From: Geosiphon pyriformis
Taxonomy: Eukaryota > Glomeromycota > Glomeromycetes > Archaeosporales > Geosiphonaceae
NCBI GenBank assembly: GCA_016748015.1
Contig: JAAOMT010000710.1
Span: forward strand, 591,067 to 655,066
Direction of reading: 5' to 3'
DNA length: 64,000 nt
Part shown: positions 8,250 through 55,102 of the stretch, in pieces
Layout of the letters: each line of letters opens with the position of its first letter
Position numbering within the stretch: position 1 is the stretch's first letter
Made by a program: the position numbers and the translations under genes
The notes under the pieces: model-generated
Told to the model about the DNA's origin: nothing
Databases searched by the model: none
Seen by the model: the letters and a program-made list of their open reading frames with translations, nothing else

Positions 8250-9374
8250 GCTGACATAGAACACAACAAGCTGCTGTCAGTACCTTTGTGGAATGACAAT
8301 AGCAAAGGAAAGCAAAGAGAAAAACTTACCTGAAATGCTGACTAAAACTGGGAAACCAACCACAATTCAGAAGAGCCAGCTTGGAAATAAGAATAAAAGA
8401 CAAAAGAAAAAAGAAAGAGAAAGAAAGAAGAATCAATATCCACCAGCACCACTACATATAATTCCTACACTATACTACAACAATCTGCTTATCATCACCC
8501 AAAACTGGTGTGTGTTGATTAAGACAAAAAATTGTCATCAATGGGCACTTGCTATGATGACGATAAGAAGTATACTTCAACAACCAAATTCTATTGTCAC
8601 TCATACATTCTTGAACGTTTTGGAAGACCAAAATGAGTAGGAAAATAGGATAACAAACCCTGGAGAAACTCTTCTGGATGAAGGAATGTGGAATAACATT
8701 TCTGGATAAGGAGGAATGTGTGACAAATTATGTTAATACACAATTCTTATAAGCAACTGGATAAGAAAAGAAATGCCCATAAACACTGTCTGGAGATAAG
8801 CCATCAAACGTCTGGACAGGTGTCCACATAACAATAACAAAATCTGGCAAATGACACTCGCCAAAATCAAAAAAGTGACCCCAGAAGAAATAAAAACAAT
8901 TAAAAATAATCCACCTGAATCTATAGAACTTGACTGGGACCCAGAACCAGTCATAAATCTCCTAGATCCAGAACAATTCCATGAATATTATCAAGAGCTA
9001 GCACCTACCAGAAAAGAACAAGAGCAGCATTTGGAGTAGTTGAATACTTAATTATGTCAACATTGCTTAATTCTCTGTGACTTTTAATATTGTAATGAGT
9101 GTGACCTCATTTACAATCCATCATCATGCATGATCTACATGATCCCAGAAGAAGAACCAATCAGCAGTTGTACATCAGAACAAAATTGGTTTTCAATCCC
9201 AATTCAAACTCTAACAATAATAATGATGAAAACACCAGTTCCAGCTCTGCACAATATAGCAACAAGGATATCAATGATTCAGACTCTAATTTAAACTCCA
9301 AAATATACATTGTGCTTTCTGATCTCTTTAAGGAGCAAGAACTCAAATGATATAATGATAATAATGAAGGTATT
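8250..9374 (+). pseudogene. Element B Cys-rich linker (decayed)
   Basis: It corresponds to C1 27561-28636. Traces of the first CxxC pair (8505-8625), the TIKNNPPESIELDWD segment (8851-9039) and the third CxxC module (about 9055-9125) are visible through frame changes and stops. It is followed by an acidic Ser/Asn-rich linker before the dUTPase. See the C1 entry for the module layout. Confidence 0.65.
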
Positions 9375-10151
9375 ATGCTAGAATGCGTACATGATACTAA
9401 CACAAGGTTTGATCTGAGATATCCAGGAAAAGAAACCATCAAATTGGAACCAAATTCATGCACATATATTGATTTCAAAATAGCTCTGAAAATTCCAACA
9501 ACAATTATGGTTCAACTAGCATTTAGGAGTAGTTTAGTAAAAAAAGGAATCAACATCAGAGGAAGGATAATTGATGCAGGATACTTAAGAAATATCATTG
9601 CCATGTTACAAAATGATTCAGAAAAAGCCTATATTATAGAACCAAATGAAAAAATAGCACAGGCAATATTTTTACCTCTGGTGAAAATAGCTCAGTTAGT
9701 TTCAGTGAGAAAGAGGGAAGAACTAGGTATAATAGCAAGAGAGATACAGGGATTTGGATTAATGAGTAGAATAGACATACCAGTCAATATGGCAAAAGAA
9801 GAAATCATTGACAAAGAAAAAATTATCTCAACTCGTCAATCAATTTCCATTCCACCATATGACCAGTATATATTAGCCATAAAAAGAGAAGTAAAGAATC
9901 AAACTCAGTTGTTTGAAGTAAAGACCACTATTTGCAAATCAAGAGAGATTGAACTCACTAATCTCTATATATTAGCCAAAAATATCAAAATTCCCATCTA
10001 CAACACAATAAGAAGTGTTATTAAAATACCAAAAGGAATCATCATTGGATATTTAACCACCAAAGTTGAGAATCAATCACCAAATCACATTCCAGATTTT
10101 CCACAGCTTTGTGGATATGTGGACATTACATCACAAACCATTTATGGATGA
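9375..10151 (+). pseudogene. Element B dUTPase-like domain and linker
   Basis: This is the longest uninterrupted dUTPase copy here (258 residues). Motifs are visible in order: TRFDLRYPG near the start (motif 1), FRSSLVKKGI (motif 2), IIDAGY with the catalytic Asp and the Tyr (motif 3), NEKIAQAIF (motif 4), and QGFG (motif 5; the Ser/Thr-Gly part is altered to LMS). Trimeric dUTPases convert dUTP to dUMP and PPi. The C-terminal half (YILAIKREVKN... CGYVDITSQTIYG) leads to RT. It is in frame with protease and gag. Confidence 0.82.
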
Positions 10152-27560: not shown

Positions 27561-28636
27561 TACTCTCATGAAACGACAACCCTAAGGAAAAGCAAAAAGA
27601 GGAAATAACTTGGGAAACAGACAATTTGACCTGGACTGACAATGAACAGGAAGAACCATTGAGTTGGGAATGAAAAGAAAAAAAAGGAAAAGGTAAAGAA
27701 AGGGAGGAAGAAAATACTTAAGCCAACAACACTTATATCTCATACACCTATGGTCAACAACAATCATCAACCTATCACTGATCCAAACCAATATGTGTTG
27801 ATTATAGTAAGAAATTGTTGTCAATGGGCACATGCTGTGGTGATGATGAAGAATATCAGATGGCAACCAAGTTCTATTGCCATGCATGCCATGTCAAACA
27901 TTTTGGAAGACCAAAACAAGTGAAAAAATGGGATAATACACCATGTATAGCCTGTGGAAAAACTCTCCTCGACGAAGGAATGTGGAACAACATTCCGGGG
28001 AGAGGAGGAACATGCAATGTGTTCTGCCAATACACGATCCTCATTAGCGACTGGGTTGAAAAAAGAACATCCATAGAAGCTGCCTGAAGAAGAGCTGTAC
28101 AGCAATTGGACAGTTGTCCACATGATGATAATAAATTATAGTGGATGGCAATTGCCAAAATTGAAGGTGCGTTGTCAGAAAAAATCAGAACAATTAAAAA
28201 CAACCCACCAGAACCCATCGAGCTTGACTGGGACGCAGAGCCAATCATAAATTTTCTGGAACCAGAAGAGTTCCATGAACACTACCAAAACTTGGCACCC
28301 ACTAGAGAAGAGCAAGAATAATGGCTAACACAGTTAAATACAAGACTGTGTTGCCATTGTTTAATTCCCAGTGACTTTGAATATTGTGACGATTGTAACC
28401 TCATTTACAATCCACCATCACACATGATCTACACAATCCCTAAAGAAGAAGAACCAATCAGCAGCTGTGCATCAGAATCAAAATTGCTGATCAATTGCGA
28501 TCCAGACTCTAATGACGATAACAAAAACACCAGTTCCAGCTCTGTTTAAAATGACAATGACAACAAAGACAATTCAAACTCTGATTTAAACTATGAACAA
28601 TACATTGCACTACCAGATCTCTCCAAAAAACAAGAG
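27561..28636 (+). pseudogene. Element C1 Cys-rich linker with three zinc-ribbon-like modules
   Basis: It lies in frame between protease and dUTPase. Module 1 (27795-27905): C-x2-C...C-x2-C, with the second Cys Tyr here (CVDYSKK) but Cys in A-2, D and C2. Module 2 (27940-28030): CIACGKTLLDEG...CNVFCQ. Module 3 (28340-28405): CCHCLIPSDFEYCDDC. Between 2 and 3 lies a helical, charged segment ending in LEPEEFHEHYQ. An acidic Ser/Asn stretch follows. I do not recognise this as a named retroelement domain; nucleic-acid binding is a guess from the zinc-ribbon pattern. Confidence 0.72.
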
Positions 28637-29395
28637 TTGAAATGGTATAGTGACAATAAGGAAGGGATTATACCAGAACATGTGCATAATACTAATGCAG
28701 AGTTTGATCTGAGGTATCCAGGAAAAAAGACCATCAAATTGGAATCACATTCACACACCTACATTAATCTGAAAGTAGCCCTAAAAATTCCGACAACAAC
28801 AATAGTTCAATTAACATTTAGGAATAGTTTAGCGAAAAGAGGGATTAATATAAGAGGAGGAATAATTGATGCGGGATATGTAAGAAATATCATCGCTATG
28901 CTACAAAATGACTCAGAAAAGGCCTATATAATAGAGTCCAATAAAAAGATAGCACAGGCAATATTCCTGCCTCTGGTTAGAGTAGCTCAGTTAGTATTAG
29001 TGAGAAAGAGGGAGAAATTAGGAATAACAGCAAGAGAAATACAGGGATTTGGGTCAACAGGTAAAATAGATGTACCAGTAATATGGCGGAGGAAAAAATT
29101 GTTGGCCAAGAAAAAATTATCTCAACTGGTCAAGCTATTTTCATTCCACTATATAACCAGTACATGCTAGCAATAAAAAGGAAGAAAAAAGACCAAGCAC
29201 AAATTTTTGAAGCAGAAGCCAGTCTTTGTGAATCAAGAGAAGTTGGACTCATCAATCTTCACATACCAACCAAAAATTACAGCCACATTAAAATTCTTAT
29301 CTACAACAACACAGGAAATGTCATAGTAATACCAGCCAGAATCATTATTGGATACTTAAACACTAAAATAGAGGATTAACCACCAAACTTCATTT
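28637..29395 (+). pseudogene. Element C1 dUTPase-like domain and linker
   Basis: dUTPase motifs: NAEFDLRYPG; FRNSLAKRGI (the second Ser of RSS kept, first altered); GIIDAGYVRNI with catalytic Asp and Tyr; NKKIAQAIF; and IQGFGSTGKID, the classic Gly-rich motif 5. A single-base deletion near 29081 (DVPV then a shift) breaks the frame just after motif 5, and the linker resumes at 29083 in another frame. Trimeric dUTPase topology is inferred from motif order. Confidence 0.83.
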
Positions 29396-46800: not shown

Positions 46801-47417
46801 ACTCAATGCCAGCCAAATTATTATCAACCCAAACTAATTTGTGTCAATTGTGATAAAAAATTGTTAACAATAAGCACATGTTGTGGTAACAATGAGAAAT
46901 GGCCAATTACAACAAAATATTACTGTCACTCATGCATTTTTAAACACTTTGAATAGCCAAAAAAACAAGAAAAATAGGACAATAAACTATGTCTTACTTG
47001 TAAAGAAACTCTCCTAGATGAAGGAATGTGAAACGACATTCCTAATCATAGAGAAACATGCAACAAATTATGTCAGTACATGATTCTGATCAGCAATTGG
47101 GTAAGAAAAAAAACACCAATAGACACTGTTTGAAAAAAAGCTGTTAAATGTTTAGATAATTGTTCATATAATAACAACAAAATCTGGAGAATCGCAATTA
47201 CCAAAATTGAAGACATAATGTTAGAAGAAATAAAAACAATTAAAAACAACCCACCAGAATCCAAAAAAATCATTTGAATCCTAAACTCTGATATTATCCT
47301 TGATGTTATAGATCCAGAACAATTTCACAAACACTACCAAGAATTGGCACCCACTAAAAAAAAGCTAAACACCCAACTATGTGACCATTATTTAATACTA
47401 TGTGACTTTCAATATTG
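43842..47417 (+). pseudogene. Element C2 gag, protease and Cys-rich linker (heavily decayed)
   Basis: The gag N-terminus is open at 43979-44350 (ELVFNFYINKRIKYFLREP). The capsid core is at about 44840-45420, the knuckle (CHYCGKQRHL) near 45555, protease about 46140-46570 (active loop ILNSGSAGSII, DSG changed to NSG). Cys-rich module 1 is at about 46840-46960 (CVNCDKKLLT...YYCHSC). Numerous stops. It ends abruptly in linker module 3 at the border of the island. Confidence 0.82.
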
Positions 47418-47701
47418 TAATAATTACGTATTGTAGAAGCCGCAACAGTCTTTTCTTTAAGTAATTTATAAATTTCGAACGCCAATTTGTTAAATGAGAA
47501 TTTTGGATCCGATTCGGTTCTTTTATCGTACAATTGTCTTAGATGCCTCCACAACGTTTCGACATCTGGCGAATAAATTTTGTTCTCTGTTCGTTTCGTT
47601 ATTGGTAAATTTCTGGACTTCATAGTCTTATTTAATATTCTCATATTGTGAGAGTTGGCTATTACAGAGCATGCCAAGAACGAAACCAAATAATATTCCA
47701 A
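47418..47701 (-). pseudogene. Truncated gene joined to C2, unknown function
   Basis: From ATG (MEYYLVSFLACSVIANSHNM) the frame is open for about 94 codons of non-retroelement sequence, ending KTVAASTIRN; it then runs into C2 antisense and stops at 47354. Composition is CpG-containing and unlike the elements. The segment SFNKLAFEIYKLLKEKTVAASTIRN looks like a small helix-turn-helix-like unit, but I cannot name a family. The 3' end is lost. Confidence 0.45.
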
Positions 47702-47991: not shown

Positions 47992-49928
47992 TCAGCGTTA
48001 GTATATTACGGTATTAGATCGCATTGCGCAGCACTCTTCCTTACGAAAAAAAAGAAGGTCGAAAAAGTTGAACAAGCATTGACGAAGGCGGAGAAGGAGC
48101 TAGAAGATGCGAAGATGGCGTTGCAAGAGTTTAATATGGGAGAGGACGGACAGTGGTTGGCTGAGCTGAAGAGGAAACTACGGAAGGAAGAAGGGACGGA
48201 GGCGCAGCGAGCCAGGTGGGAGACGGAGAAGACGGCGCTGGCGGACGAGGAGACCAGGCTGAAAGCAGAAGTGACCAAGTGGAGTGACGAGGTGCTGAAG
48301 AGGAGTGAAGACCTGCGACGGGCGCGGGCTCAACCAGGTAACGACTTTGTGACTCGGGCGTTGGGGACATAGGGTAGAGTAGACGTAGAACAGTGTTAAT
48401 GCGTTTTATTCTATTAAGTATTCCATACACACTCTTATTGCTTGCACCTTGTAATGTTATCCAATGTTTATTTAATCCGTTTTTTATACTTTCAGAACGT
48501 CTCCTAAATGAAGAAGAATATCTATCATCTATTCCTCCAACCATTGTTTATCCTCTGGATGCTAGTACTTCGACACGTTCTACGCGTAACGGGGGTCTCT
48601 GGCCATCAAGAATAATTCCCTGGAATGGATTTCTTGAAGAAGTAACTCAATTCAGCTTCGATCAAAAAGAGCGAAAGTTCAGTAGGCCCCAATTCGTTGA
48701 AGGTTTAAGAGCTCGTGTCGAAAATAGTGTTGAAACTGCTATGGAAGTTAATATTTTTCATATATTGAACTCGCCTTTGTCCCCAACATTTGAGTTTTCG
48801 AAACAAAAAGATTCTGACTTTAATCCCGATGACCCGAACATTGGCCTTGGAAAACCAGATTTCACTTGCCGAAAGTATGATGGTCCTAATGATCATACAG
48901 GAAAAAGGATCATAAACATAGAAATCAAAAGAGATTGTGTTATGACACAGTTACGAGAGACTAATTTAAGTGAATTATTTGATGAACACTTTACTGGTCA
49001 TGCACGTGGCGATTTGGTTAACGTAATTAGTCTGATTTACAACTATATGGTCGCGGACGAATTACAATATGGCATACTTGCAACCCATGATTACCATTGG
49101 TTCCTTTGCCGTCCAAGTGCTAATCCATCAATACTATTAATTTCTAAATCTCTTCCGTTACAGTCAACAAGTCCGCCAGTACTCAAAACTTATGCATACT
49201 TGGTCGGCCTGGCAACAAGTGAACCTAATTCACCTCATCCAAATGTAATTTCAGGACGAACTAGACAAGATATCAGAGTACAAGGTTCCAGAATTCAAAA
49301 CTCGGGTTTCTATAACCAAAGTTTCAGTCAAAGTTTGGGTCCAGATAGTAGTTATCACAACCAGCAAGGTTCCAGGGACCAGAGCTCTGAAGATCAAGAT
49401 TCTATAACAGGAATAGAAGAACAGACTTATGGCTACAAGGATTTCAAGCTTGAGGGTATTCTAGGATGTGGACAAACTGGGAGGACATTTCGAGCCAGAT
49501 TCCATGGAGAGCCAATTGCTTTGAAGGTTATTGATCTATATAAGGAAGCTGATCTCTTGCATAAAATTCGAAAAGAAATTGAAATATACAAAAATCTTGT
49601 CAAAATTCAAGGAATATATATTCCCAAATTGGTGTGTCATGGTTATTACGGATATGGGATGGGCTATTTTATGGGTGTCACTATTGTTGGTACTACTTTG
49701 AACAACCATAAAGTAAGTAGTAACCAAAAGTATAGAGCATTGGAGGCCTTAAATGCTATTCATAGTTATAATATTCTTCACAATGATATCCGACAAGAGA
49801 ATATTTTGATTAATGAAAAAGGTGAAATTTATATCATTGATTTTGGGATGTCTGTTGTAACTGATAATAGGGAGCTATTTTGTGAAGAGGAATGTGAATT
49901 ATCCAGTTTATTAGATCGCTATATGTAA
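47992..49928 (+). CDS. Crinkler-type protein: coiled coil, PD-(D/E)XK nuclease, protein kinase; one intron
   Basis: Exon 1 is open from 47992 to 48337 (no ATG before 48115; start or an upstream exon uncertain). Intron 48338-48495 has GT...TTTCAG; exon 2 is 48496-49928, and splicing keeps the frame (RAQP-ERLLNEEE). Exon 1 encodes a Glu/Lys/Arg-rich coiled coil with Trp at intervals. Exon 2: REase-like core LGKPDF...IINIEIK (PD...ExK, about 48850-48930), then a kinase with GCGQTGRTF glycine loop, ALKV lysine, HNDIRQENIL catalytic loop and DFG. Catalytic residues are intact. This matches REase-kinase effectors of fungi and oomycetes, thought to act in nuclei of hosts or rivals. No secretion signal is visible, perhaps because the 5' end is missing. 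Confidence 0.75.
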
Positions 49929-50043: not shown

Positions 50044-51548
50044 ATGGAAAATGATAACTATAATGGTTCTACCGAATATGAAAAGGCAATACGTTTTTTG
50101 GAGATAGGTTGCAATTGTGATTGTTCGAAAAAGATTCCGAGAGAAAGGTTTGCTGAATTACGTGAAGCGTTTCAAGCACTCTCTGGACCCGAGCAAGATA
50201 TATTTTTAATGGCCCAACTGAAAGCAATGAATGGCGGGGAAATAACTGCCAGTCAACGTCTTAAAAAGAAAACGCGAACTAATAAGCGAACGTTTTACTA
50301 CTGAGATCGCAATACGCAGCTTTGTCAGAAAACGTATCTCAACATGTTAGGAATTGGTCGCACTCACTTCGAAAACGTCAGAAATCACCTAACGACGAAT
50401 GGTATAATACCGCGTGTTCATGGTAATGTAAAAAGAGTGCCGCGATGGAAAACTAAAATAACCATTGATATAACCGTTGCTACCGCCGTGAAGAATTTTC
50501 TCGAAAACTATGCTGAAATTCATGGACTTCCAAGTCCTGGCAGAAACGTCAATCGCATTACTCAATCGCTTACACTTTTGCCAGCTGAAACAAGTTACAA
50601 GTCAGTCTATCGTGATTTTATTGCAGGTCTCGAAAATGATAGCACGTTAAAATTGTTAAAATATGACGCATTTCGCAAGTTATGGCACCAATTAATGCCT
50701 TATATTCAAATTATGAGTCCAAGAACGGATTTATGTGACACGTGCCAACATTTTCGGAACGGCTTACAGTATAACGCTCGTAAAGAAGAAGAGGCAAAAG
50801 ACTTACTAAAGAAATTCAAAGAACATCTGGTTAAGGCTAAATTAGAGAGAAATTATTACAACAAAAATACGAAATTAGCAGAACAACAGAGGAAATTGGT
50901 AAATGAACATTTTATAACAAGAGGTAAAGCTGATTATTGTAGCGTTGACGCTACTGCTCATTACAGTTACGATTGAGCGCAAAACGTTCACGTACCCCAT
51001 TCCGATCAACAGGTAAGTAAAATTTATTATCTTAGTCCGCGTAAAGTACATTTATTTGGTATCCAAGATGAAGCAGTACGCGAACAAATCAATTACGTTC
51101 TTGATGAGAACGAAATAATAGGGAAAGGCCCTAATGGCACCCTGAGCATGGTATTCAATGGAATTAAGAGACTGAATAAAGGCGAAAAACATCTAAAGAT
51201 TACTTGTGATAATGCGGGTGGTCAGAATAAAAATAATGCCACCATTTGATTTTACCTATATTTAGTAATTTGCGGTTATTACGAAAGTATCGAATTAAAT
51301 TTCATGGTACCTGGACATACCAAATTTAAGTGTGATGGTAGGTTTGGATTGATTAAAAAGCTTTATCGAAAAACAACAGTAGATTGTGTGGATCACATTG
51401 TTGAAGTTGTGAAAAAATCAAGTACAGCGGGATTAAACAAAGTTCAGTGTTATGAAAACGGCAAAGGCTTTCAATACTTAGATCTTAATTCCGTGTTGGG
51501 AATTTTTTTTAAGAAATTGAGTGGTTTACAAAAGTATCAGCATTTTCT
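50044..51548 (+). pseudogene. DDE-type transposase-like ORF (DUF7869-like), three in-frame TGA, runs into gap
   Basis: A single frame from ATG at 50044 to the gap (501 codons) is broken only by TGA at 50302, 50974 and 51247. Order: N-terminal region with CRETHF-like LCQKTYLNMLGIGRTHF, VHGNVKRVPRW; CDTCQHF Cys pair; SVDATAHYSYD (probable first Asp); ITCDNAGGQNKNNATI (second Asp); VPGHTKFKCDGRFGLIKKLY; KKLSGLQKYQHF. These are hallmarks of the DUF7869 family of transposon-borne proteins, known to me from animals, oomycetes and others. TIRs were not found. Trp is TGG at two places and TGA at up to three. Confidence 0.7.
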
Positions 51549-52095
51549 NNNNNNNNNNNNNNNNNNNNNNNNNNNNNNNNNNNNNNNNNNNNNNNNNNNN
51601 NNNNNNNNNNNNNNNNNNNNNNNNNNNNNNNNNNNNNNNNNNNNNNNNNNNNNNNNNNNNNNNNNNNNNNNNNNNNNNNNNNNNNNNNNNNNNNNNNNNN
51701 NNNNNNNNNNNNNNNNNNNNNNNNNNNNNNNNNNNNNNNNNNNNNNNNNNNNNNNNNNNNNNNNNNNNNNNNNNNNNNNNNNNNNNNNNNNNNNNNNNNN
51801 NNNNNNNNNNNNNNNNNNNNNNNNNNNNNNNNNNNNNNNNNNNNNNNNNNNNNNNNNNNNNNNNNNNNNNNNNNNNNNNNNNNNNNNNNNNNNNNNNNNN
51901 NNNNNNNNNNNNNNNNNNNNNNNNNNNNNNNNNNNNNNNNNNNNNNNNNNNNNNNNNNNNNNNNNNNNNNNNNNNNNNNNNNNNNNNNNNNNNNNNNNNN
52001 NNNNNNNNNNNNNNNNNNNNNNNNNNNNNNNNNNNNNNNNNNNNNNNNNNNNNNNNNNNNNNNNNNNNNNNNNNNNNNNNNNNNNNNNNNNNNNN
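51549..52095. other. Assembly gap (547 N)
   Basis: Run of N. The sequences on the two sides are not obviously parts of one gene, and they differ in composition and in how TGA is used, so the join should be treated as a scaffold link. Confidence 0.99.
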
Positions 52096-52908
52096 TTTTG
52101 AGAAAATTCCCAAATTGTTTATTCTACTACCCGTGGTTCTAGACTAAATGAAAAGGCATGAGAATATTCTTATGTTGACAAAGATGATCCAAATGAGAAA
52201 AAGAATATTGAAATGTTAGCTAATGGAAATTTAAAAAGAAGAATAAAAGCCAATCTAGAACCTCACTATAGTAATCTTCCCAAATTCTATGACCGAACCT
52301 TTTATCTTTCATTAGCCCAAGAATTATTGCAGGCTTTAAAAGAACTAATTAGTGAATTAGTGATTATCAGTGCTATGGTCAAAGGTCGGAAAAATGCTGG
52401 AAAAGCAAAGAAAGACAAATTCATTAAAAATTTTGCTAATTTTTCTCAAAGCAGATTGGTTTTAATAGAAACAGTAATTCCCAAAAAAAGTGAAGAAGAA
52501 AGAAGGGATGGCTATAAATCTACTCGCTGAGATTATATAAAAGAAAATATTCCTGATTTTGATATTTTTATTGATGATTCTCTGATCATTATTGAAGAAA
52601 CTAATAAGTTATTACCTGATAAAACTTATGTCATACCAGCTTATAAATGCAACCAAAATCTCAAAGCTCCCAACATCTATCATGTAGCAACTAGTGCCAC
52701 TGATTTAAAAGACAGTGATTTTGTTATTGCTGTCTTTGAGATGAAAAATAACCAGTTAAAGAAAAAATTAAAATTTCTGCAAATACAAGAGAGAAACAGT
52801 TGAGTTTTTTGGATGATAATTAGTGGATCACTAATTTTTATCTTAGTTGCTTTAGTATTAGTAGTTAAAATTACAATAGTGCAGAAAAAACGTTTTAGAA
52901 AGAATTAA
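52096..52908 (+). CDS. ORF open only with TGA=Trp; 270 aa, C-terminal TM segment, start in gap
   Basis: Frame 1 from the gap to TAA at 52906 has four TGA codons (52099, 52162, 52528, 52801) and no TAA or TAG. Read as Trp they give FWENSQ, KAWEYSY, STRWDYI and NSWVFW. One Trp is TGG. The protein is Lys-rich and helical (FYLSLAQELLQALKELISEL), has a mixed region DIFIDDSLIIIEETNKLLP, a Lys-rich coil, one TM helix (MIISGSLIFILVALVLVV) and a basic end. No family recognised. Use of UGA for Trp is the rule in Mycoplasma-type Mollicutes and in fungal mitochondria. Its convergent neighbour shows the same. Confidence 0.65.
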
Positions 52909-53095
52909 AAATTATTGACAAAGATCAGATCAAGCCATTATTTTTTGTTCTTGGTAATTCATAAGTGATTTTTTCTTGATCTAGATATTTCTGGAGAGTT
53001 TGGGTATCATTGATTTTAAAAACATAAGGGGCAATTTTTTCTCCTTGAGCTTTCTTTAAAATGCTTCTAATGGTGCTGTAATTTTTGAATTCCAT
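52895..53095 (-). CDS. Small convergent ORF open only with TGA=Trp; 66 aa
   Basis: ATG at 53093-53095, TAA at 52895-52897; reads MEFKNYSTIRSILKKAQGEK at the N-terminus. A single TGA (GLI-W-SLSII) would be Trp. The 3' end overlaps the plus ORF by 14 bp, a compact arrangement typical of bacteria. Under the standard code it stops at 54 residues. No Shine-Dalgarno sequence is evident upstream. No known domain. Confidence 0.5.
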
Positions 53096-53371
53096 AGTAG
53101 ATTTAATGTAAATTAGTTTTATATTAATATTTTTTTATATAGTAATAGAGATAATCCTATATTAATTATGTTATGGTTTATATTCATCATATTCTGGTAT
53201 AATAAAGTGAACATTAAAATTTACAAGTTCATAAGTTATGAATGAACACCATTATTACTTTTCAAAATGTCATCAATCATACTAGTCAATTTTACAGTCA
53301 TATTACAATCAGCTTCTCATTTATGTCACATAGTAAAATGTTTACTTTGTCTGGTTTTGTTATAGCATGCC
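53096..53371. other. Untranslated stretch between code-4-like ORFs and C2
   Basis: AT-rich, no ORF of note on either strand under either code. The junction to C2 sequence is near 53372 (ATATTATTAAACTAAATG resembles B at 9628). The exact breakpoint is uncertain by tens of bases. Confidence 0.5.
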
Positions 53372-54234
53372 CCATATTATTAAACTAAATGAAAAAATAG
53401 CACAGGCAATATTCTTATTTTTGGTAAAAATAAATCAGTTAGTATTAGTAAAAACAAGAGATTACAACAAGAGAAAAAAATAAATTTGAATCAATAGATA
53501 GAATAAATATATTAGTTAATATGACAGAAAAAAAAATTATTAACAAGAAAAAAATTATCTTTACTAGTTAATTGATTTCCATTCCACCATATGATTAGTA
53601 TTTAATAGCTATAGAAAGAAAAATAAGAAATTAGCCCCAAATTTTTAAAGTGGAACCAACTATTTGTAAACCAAGAGAGATTGTTATTACTAATCTCTAT
53701 ATACTGGTTAAAATTAACAAGCATATTAAAATTTTTATCTACAACACAATAGAAGACACCATTAAAATATCAAGTAGAATAATCATTGGATATTTGAGTA
53801 CTAAAGTTGAAGACCAATCACCAAATACCATTTTAGATTTTCTATAACTGTACAAATATGTAGACATTACATCACAAACCATATACAAATGAGAAAAATA
53901 CTATTTGCTCCAATTAGAACAATTAGAACAAACAAACTTGGGAAATTTAAACTCATTTCAATGAATACAGCTCAAAATTTTACTTAACAATTTTACTAAT
54001 ATCTTTGCAAATAAAAACAAATTTGATAGAATTGACATTATCTAGCACTAAATTAAGATTGGAGATACAATGCTAATTAAACAAAAAACATACAAAATAT
54101 TACCAATAAGCCATGAAATTATTTGACAAAAAATCAGATGTTAGATAATGGGTTAATTCAACTATTTATAAGTTCATGATCATTATTAGTGGTATTAATT
54201 CAGAAAAAGAATGGAAAAATTTATTTTTGTGTGG
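53372..54234 (+). pseudogene. Element C2, right part: dUTPase motifs 4-5, linker, RT start
   Basis: Begins in dUTPase motif 4 (NEKIAQAIF), goes through the linker (53650-53847 open) and RT N-terminus (KNGKIYFCV). Compared with B, about 530 bp equivalent to 9095-9627 is missing between the two parts of C2. Interrupted at FCV by C3. Confidence 0.8.
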
Positions 54235-55102
54235 TGTTACAGATGAGTCTTCGGGGTGTCAAATGAGTAACAAATCCATAACTTGGTGCACAAAGTGATT
54301 AGTGATGATGATAATCTGAAGGTATTTTATCTAAAGGTTTTCCAATTGAGTTCTTTGTATAATGGACAGAGATTCAATGGTAACAGTTTATCAGTAGTTT
54401 CCTGAAATTATAGTTTTATCAATTGCTTGCTCAGTTTGATGGTTGATAATTCTTTTGATATAATATCCTCCATAAGTATATACCAGTGCTGTTTCCTGAT
54501 GTCAGTTCCTCTGTAAGTCCTCCAAGAGTAAGTATTGTTTAAGCAAGTTTATTTCTCCGTAAGTCCTCCAAGAGTAAATCTTTTAATTAAGTTAGTAGAC
54601 AACAAAGAAAATAAAGAAAGATAAAAGAGAAAAAATAAGAAATCAACCAAGGCAATTTGCAAGTTAGTATCCCATCAATAGCCATGATCAAGAGCTATTG
54701 TTCCAGTATGGTTAAGTATTAGTTACTATCAACATAAAGTATTGATAGTGAAGAATGAATTTAATAAAGTGAATAATTATTTATTTGAGAATTGTGGTAA
54801 CTAAGCTAAGAATTCTTAATGTCTTTTTTTTTTTTTTTCTGTTTTTACTGTTACTGCTATATATACATATTTGAGATTTCTCAATTTCTCAATTCCTTGT
54901 GACAGGAATCCTGGAATTTCTGATAAGAGGAATCCTGGAATTCTAGAATCCTGTGATTCTTTGTCAGAGAATTCTGAAATTTCTGGAATCCTGCAATTCC
55001 TCTGAGAGGAATCTTGAAATTCCACATTTTACTACATTTACCTCTGATTGGCTAATATCTACTGACTAATAATACTATATTTTCTATATTCTATGAGTAA
55101 CA
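54235..55102 (-). repeat. 3' LTR of element C3 (minus orientation)
   Basis: 868 bp, TGTTACAGATGAG and ATGAGTAACA ends, reverse complement of the C LTRs. The palindromic GGAATTCC/CAGGATTCC cluster is at about 54890-55020 and TATATATA at about 54857-54864. It is inserted in C2 RT; the other LTR is outside the window or lost. Confidence 0.88.

Follow-up and report, generated by a model that had tools for sequence, protein, structure and literature searches.

A multi-copy DNA transposon with TGA-encoded tryptophan in the Geosiphon pyriformis genome, and its likely link to Mollicutes endobacteria

Results

Genes and features of the locus

The window considered throughout is the whole stretch of 64,000 nucleotides of a Geosiphon pyriformis contig. 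The original prediction described in it two convergent genes that are open only if TGA encodes Trp. The plus-strand frame at 52099–52908 contains in-frame TGA codons at 52099, 52159, 52528 and 52801 and a single TGG at 52810, and ends at its first TAA (52906); both codon reading and homology confirmed that it is open only when TGA is read as Trp. As it begins directly after an assembly gap of 547 N (51549–52095), where other copies hold the C terminus of a transposase and the N terminus of the present gene, only the 3′ portion of a cut gene is present, referred to below as the passenger gene, which is HAD-like by the fold of its homologue P0001 and carries a C-terminal hydrophobic helix. A TAA/TAG-free frame of 270 codons was reached in none of 2000 Markov shuffles of 52096–53100 (mean 92, maximum 191). 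The number of TGA codons in it is unremarkable (4 observed vs 5.4 expected from composition) and, since this number alone fits composition, it is homology that proves the code. Weak Pfam matches, all below the cut-off, were rejected.

The minus-strand frame (53095–52895) is as had been described, with 66 codons, one TGA and a 14-bp overlap with the plus frame, and its length is ordinary, having been reached in 1854 of the 2000 shuffles. A small ORF belonging to the element aligns with this frame up to ..KITYEL; the TGA of the frame is uninformative on the code because it is located past this match. We therefore rejected it as a code-4 gene: it belongs to a truncated small inward-facing ORF (52895–53122, minus strand; tblastn match at 52955–53122, 68% to the small protein of locus L047) that adjoins the right terminal repeat on its inner side. 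The supposed pair of convergent genes thus consists of the passenger gene and a truncated terminal-repeat remnant.

Upstream of the gap lies the transposase gene (plus strand, 50044 to about 51549, where it runs into the gap), assigned to DUF7869 (PF25273, E 6.2e-16) and by the fold of its homologue P0006, with in-frame TGA at 50302, 50974 and 51247, at conserved Trp codons. This ORF with its three TGA, which belongs to the same element as the reported frame, had been missed at first reading. It is adjoined upstream by a standard-code kinase gene (47992–49928, plus strand; Pkinase PF00069, E 9.6e-16), with a first exon to about 48337, a predicted intron from 48338 that was read by eye from a GT common to the C331 copy, and an open frame at 48378–49928; its two pieces contain 6 TGG and 0 TGA. 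As the left end of the element is lost here, placement of the kinase gene inside the element cannot be demonstrated from the window copy.

The right terminal repeat occupies 53120–53373 (plus strand), ends in ..GTTATAGCATGCCCC and is defined by recurrence of the ends across copies. Outside the element, 53374–54243 (plus strand) was identified by repeat comparison as the right part of a fungal repeat, which in other copies bears a dUTPase-like ORF, while its left part is found at 46975–47425 (plus strand), where the upstream halves of other repeat copies match (these matches reach about position 470 of 1000). The element end at 53373/53374 is the exact break of the fungal repeat, in unbroken sequence; at 26 other loci that were fetched, the repeat is continuous across the junction site. 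Beyond its left part, about 530 bp of the repeat are absent from the window, as is the left terminal repeat of the element, which was looked for and not found. From the right-end junction and the repeat's left part it follows that the window copy lies within the fungal repeat and that its left end has been lost together with those roughly 530 bp. A left edge at about 50025, an early idea, was abandoned once an inverted copy of the right end turned up some 6 kb upstream. The dUTPase-like repeat is very abundant (2447 first-look candidates), and further copies of it lie in the window at 8661–9627 and 27932–28920.

Copies, ends and insertion sites

In the G. pyriformis genome, at least 98 pieces match the transposase and at least 29 the passenger, with several pieces per copy; the transposase count is a lower bound, as 86 of 197 candidates were scored. 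Thirty transposase loci were fetched with their flanks (L043–L072), among which the C387 copy is present twice (L057 and L068). Copies are bounded by inverted repeats of about 300 bp (in C331, 80% over 295 columns), the same ends recur at separate places, and pairs of inverted ends were found at 8 places, 4.1–7.3 kb apart. At C401:141769–143647, two inverted ends are just 1.9 kb apart, perhaps in a shortened derivative.

These ends bear on whether pieces of endobacterial DNA were inserted passively into the nucleus, as mitochondrial inserts are, holding the transposon by chance and being copied later with nuclear DNA. Such an origin, which we consider unlikely, would agree with the flanks of the two copies with both ends read, where a target-site duplication is seen in just one (ATTT/ATTT in C404; ATAT/ATAC in C331), and with the flanks that C258 and C393 share past the element end, by which duplication of nuclear DNA does occur. 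It fits poorly with the same ends at separate places and with the exact meeting of the window copy and the fungal repeat at the element end, and an unsystematic look at the flanks of the copies read revealed none of bacterial origin. As to C258 (L040) and C393 (L041), their right flanks are alike past the element end either through nuclear duplication or through the same other repeat.

Reading of TGA and selection

In six transposase copies, the sole stops in the aligned stretch (for L044 to column 490, for L049 from column 30) are TGA at Trp columns, with 18 TGA and 12 TGG, and the two codons swap at the same Trp column between copies. Towards the C terminus of the transposase, the frame of L044 and of L046 changes, and L045 is a seventh near-intact copy, with one extra TGA at column 498. 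Among the seven near-intact copies, dS is unsaturated (0.18–1.6) in 9 of 21 pairs, for which omega is 0.05–0.14, the other 12 pairs being saturated; eleven decayed copies compared with the window copy gave omega of 0.09–0.30. For the passenger, omega is 0.20–0.69 in 27 of 28 pairs, and the remaining pair, C258/C393 with its shared flanks, shows 1.28, as after duplication in the nucleus. The TGA/TGG exchange and the omega of 0.05–0.14 indicate, on the sequences compared, that the near-intact copies diverged while being made into protein by a cell that reads TGA as Trp. If fungal copies are untranslatable, the mostly synonymous differences between them predate landing, and several separate landings would then be required.

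The original prediction was to be refuted by nuclear homologues that have TGG where the frame has TGA. Some copies indeed have TGG there; this is synonymous exchange within code 4 and does not represent a standard-code original. Decay of CGA to TGA was rejected, given Trp in relatives and 1 TAG vs 82 TGA. In both genes, TGA occupies conserved Trp codons. More distant relatives of the transposase have F, Y or Q at columns 87 and 402; for the passenger, P0004 has Gln at column 144, and P0001 lacks Trp at column 235, where C150 has TGG.

One may ask whether the element is instead a nuclear transposon that the fungus itself translates, whether through read-through of UGA, with a suppressor tRNA or after UGA-to-UGG editing. 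Numerous copies, several with a fungal-code gene, and close Rhizophagus relatives on large fungal contigs speak for this. It is nonetheless improbable, as the Trp codons of the two code-4 genes are mostly TGA (82 vs 44 TGG), an excess which is common to both genes and thus fits a genome-wide code, while the upstream genes use TGG only (40 TGG and 0 TGA in 11 pieces, whose frames were chosen as open in the standard code), and as a relative is present in a code-4 bacterium (see below).

Integrity of the assembly

Older copies contain TAA, TAG, frameshifts and gaps, and their degree of decay varies. This should be considered together with the part of the original prediction that took the sequence for a piece of a bacterial genome that was either transferred or co-assembled. 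That part is not supported: a multi-copy element with inverted terminal repeats was found instead, its copies are unequally decayed, and the window copy breaks a fungal repeat. Furthermore, among the matches listed (5 of 277 candidates scored), a single small-subunit rRNA match was found, of 1.8 kb on a contig of more than 1 Mb, which we read as 18S. The joining of endobacterial contigs or reads to fungal scaffolds, by contamination or misassembly, might be suspected from the N gap inside the window copy and from the endobacterial sequence reported, in the parts of these sources considered here, for published Glomeromycotina assemblies (PMC10507103, PMC11423566). We regard it as very unlikely, as the C331, C376, C404 and C150 loci are free of N, as old copies carry TAA, TAG and frameshifts, and as the fungal-repeat junction and the rRNA result described above also speak against it.

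Standard-code genes upstream of the transposase

In 11 of the 30 loci (L043, L050, L051, L053, L054, L056, L058, L060, L063, L067 and L071), the transposase is preceded on its own strand by a standard-code gene that is kinase- or nuclease-like. No such gene was seen upstream in the other 19, of which L044, L045 and L061 have N upstream and L046–L049 showed none within the 1.4–1.5 kb read. The genes of the window, C376 and C331 have Pfam support and that of C280 is supported via gene model P0039, those of L050, L056 and L060 were assigned by likeness to the window gene, and those of L053, L054, L063 and L067 resemble each other and are presumed to be kinase- or nuclease-like. The C331 host-code gene is enclosed by the terminal repeats, and its introns were predicted by eye. 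Omega between upstream genes is 0.96 for C401/C117 and 0.35 for C370/C302, the latter with two stops; these two pairs do not demonstrate selection on the genes in host code.

The same order recurs in gene models of other fungi, P0052 of Ambispora leptoticha among them. In Funneliformis geosporum (P0101), a PF00069 kinase is followed by the transposase; P0106 of Diversispora eburnea combines the start of the small ORF, a long part without assignment and the transposase start. In a Pfam scan of four models, a kinase match was obtained in P0101 and none in P0052, P0105 or P0106. The upstream genes resemble Crinklers in layout. They were not classed as Crinkler effectors, as the Crinkler domain (PF20147) was not among the matches for five gene pieces, of which only some include an N terminus, and the four models.

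Passenger genes and the small ORF

The passenger of the C258 copy (L040:3192–4178) has 329 codons, with 6 TGA and 1 TGG. It belongs to no Pfam family and is predicted, from the fold of P0001, to be a HAD-phosphatase-like, membrane-anchored protein. A pattern search for passenger relatives in genome_contigs gave 55 stretches, none of them confirmed. A passenger-relative gene model of Endogone sp. FLAS-F59071 (P0110) lacks the stretch with Trp column 144, as if a TGA had been spliced around. In three loci, coiled-coil-like code-4 frames, all with TGA, replace the HAD gene (L046:3368–4030, L047:3353–4288 and L048:1136–366), and that of L047 has 312 codons with 5 TGA and 0 TGG and belongs to no Pfam family.

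A small protein, beginning MEPKNYSTIRSILKK.., is encoded near the terminal repeat or the transposase in L047, L048, L049 and L074. It contains no Trp, so that its ORF reads alike in both codes, and in these four loci its C terminus is a basic RKKRK-like stretch, which resembles a nuclear localisation signal; it might, as a guess, serve nuclear entry.

Relatives of the transposase

The transposase has an RNase-H-like catalytic core in a predicted DDE/RNase-H fold (from homologue P0006); a search of PDB sequences with the transposase profile gave a best match of only E 0.2. A relative is found in a Candidatus Moeniiplasma metagenome-assembled genome (P0065, 59% over 49% of the query), in line with the original link to Mollicutes endobacteria, and in an environmental protein, P0086, the DUF7869 part is fused to a leucine-rich repeat (PF12799). 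The fusion in P0086 is what recombination of the element within a bacterial genome might leave. That the sequence is fungal mitochondrial DNA, in which TGA is Trp as well, is the least probable of the explanations considered: the code alone cannot tell mitochondria from Mollicutes, but the code-4 relative of known affiliation is a protein from Mollicutes and P0086 carries the domain fused to a leucine-rich repeat.

In a tree of 34 rows, rooted for drawing only, P0065, P0086 and four environmental rows form one clade (100/99), and its sister clade (98/99) comprises 14 rows from Geosiphon, Ambispora, Diversispora and the environment, with the Rhizophagus proteins outside the joint clade (100/99). 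The Moeniiplasma protein thus falls in the 6-row sister clade and not among the 14 rows with the Geosiphon copies. Rows of Ambispora and Diversispora stand among the Geosiphon copies, so that the phylogeny of the element departs from that of its hosts. Of the public gene models, P0105 of Ambispora (small ORF, then transposase) ends just before column 87, and P0008, P0010 and P0052 omit stretches holding columns 87, 311 or 402.

Discussion

Taken together, the reported ORF is best explained as the 3′ part of a passenger gene of a multi-copy code-4 DNA transposon, which likely entered the nucleus often, by transposition from Mollicutes endobacteria. Geosiphon hosts Mollicutes-related endobacteria. 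Inside such a bacterium, where UGA is Trp, the transposase would be made and would use DDE chemistry to cut the element at the terminal repeats; the element DNA would then get into the fungal nucleus and insert at AT-rich sites, where copies would be unable to make transposase and would decay unless moved in trans. A bacterial copy with the same ends was not seen: the search for transposase relatives yielded 58 stretches in genome_contigs and 29 in viral_contigs, none confirmed, and no match in plasmids.

The element shares with DDE/RNase-H transposons (Mos1 mariner by fold, Rhizophagus DUF7869 proteins by sequence) the predicted catalytic-core fold, inverted terminal repeats and many copies, and with the latter DUF7869. 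Unlike them, its transposase is open only with TGA as Trp although it lies in a fungal genome, and it has terminal repeats of about 300 bp with a small ORF, and code-4 passengers. Prokaryotic insertion sequences, e.g. of the IS607 type, occur in eukaryote genomes and likewise represent a mobile element common to bacterium and eukaryote; here, however, code 4 would record repeated arrivals, the domain is also found in standard-code fungal proteins, and fungal-code genes lie beside or inside some Geosiphon copies. The passenger differs from the class B acid phosphatase AphA and other HAD phosphatases in its C-terminal hydrophobic helix and in having no Pfam family, its phosphatase role being a prediction. 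Gene traffic between fungi and Mollicutes-related endobacteria is documented for MGMT and PknD kinases (PMC10507103). As far as the parts of that source considered here go, the two partners are the same and kinases are among the genes exchanged, but the direction there is from fungus to bacterium and no transposon is named, whereas here a mobile element would have moved mainly from bacterium to fungus. Our literature search found DUF7869 in no paper and, in titles and abstract starts, no description of such an element or of a vehicle for gene traffic between fungus and endobacterium.

A more far-reaching and tentative reading, which we hold possible though doubtful, is that of a two-code shuttle transposon, in which one pair of terminal repeats encloses an intron-containing kinase or nuclease gene in the fungal code, which only the host can read, together with genes for a transposase and a membrane phosphatase, which only the Mollicutes endobacterium can read. 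Such an element might alternate between both genomes, spread such genes among arbuscular mycorrhizal fungi and be a vehicle of the known gene traffic; if true, it would be a new kind of element.

A transposase dependent on the bacterial code, together with fungal copies of unequal age, offers a vehicle, a marker of direction (the code) and a clock (decay). The route thereby becomes testable in terms of the cell that makes the transposase, the entry of DNA to the nucleus and the fungal kinase genes that may ride along, and such a transposon would also explain public mycorrhizal gene models that stop before, or skip, the Trp columns.
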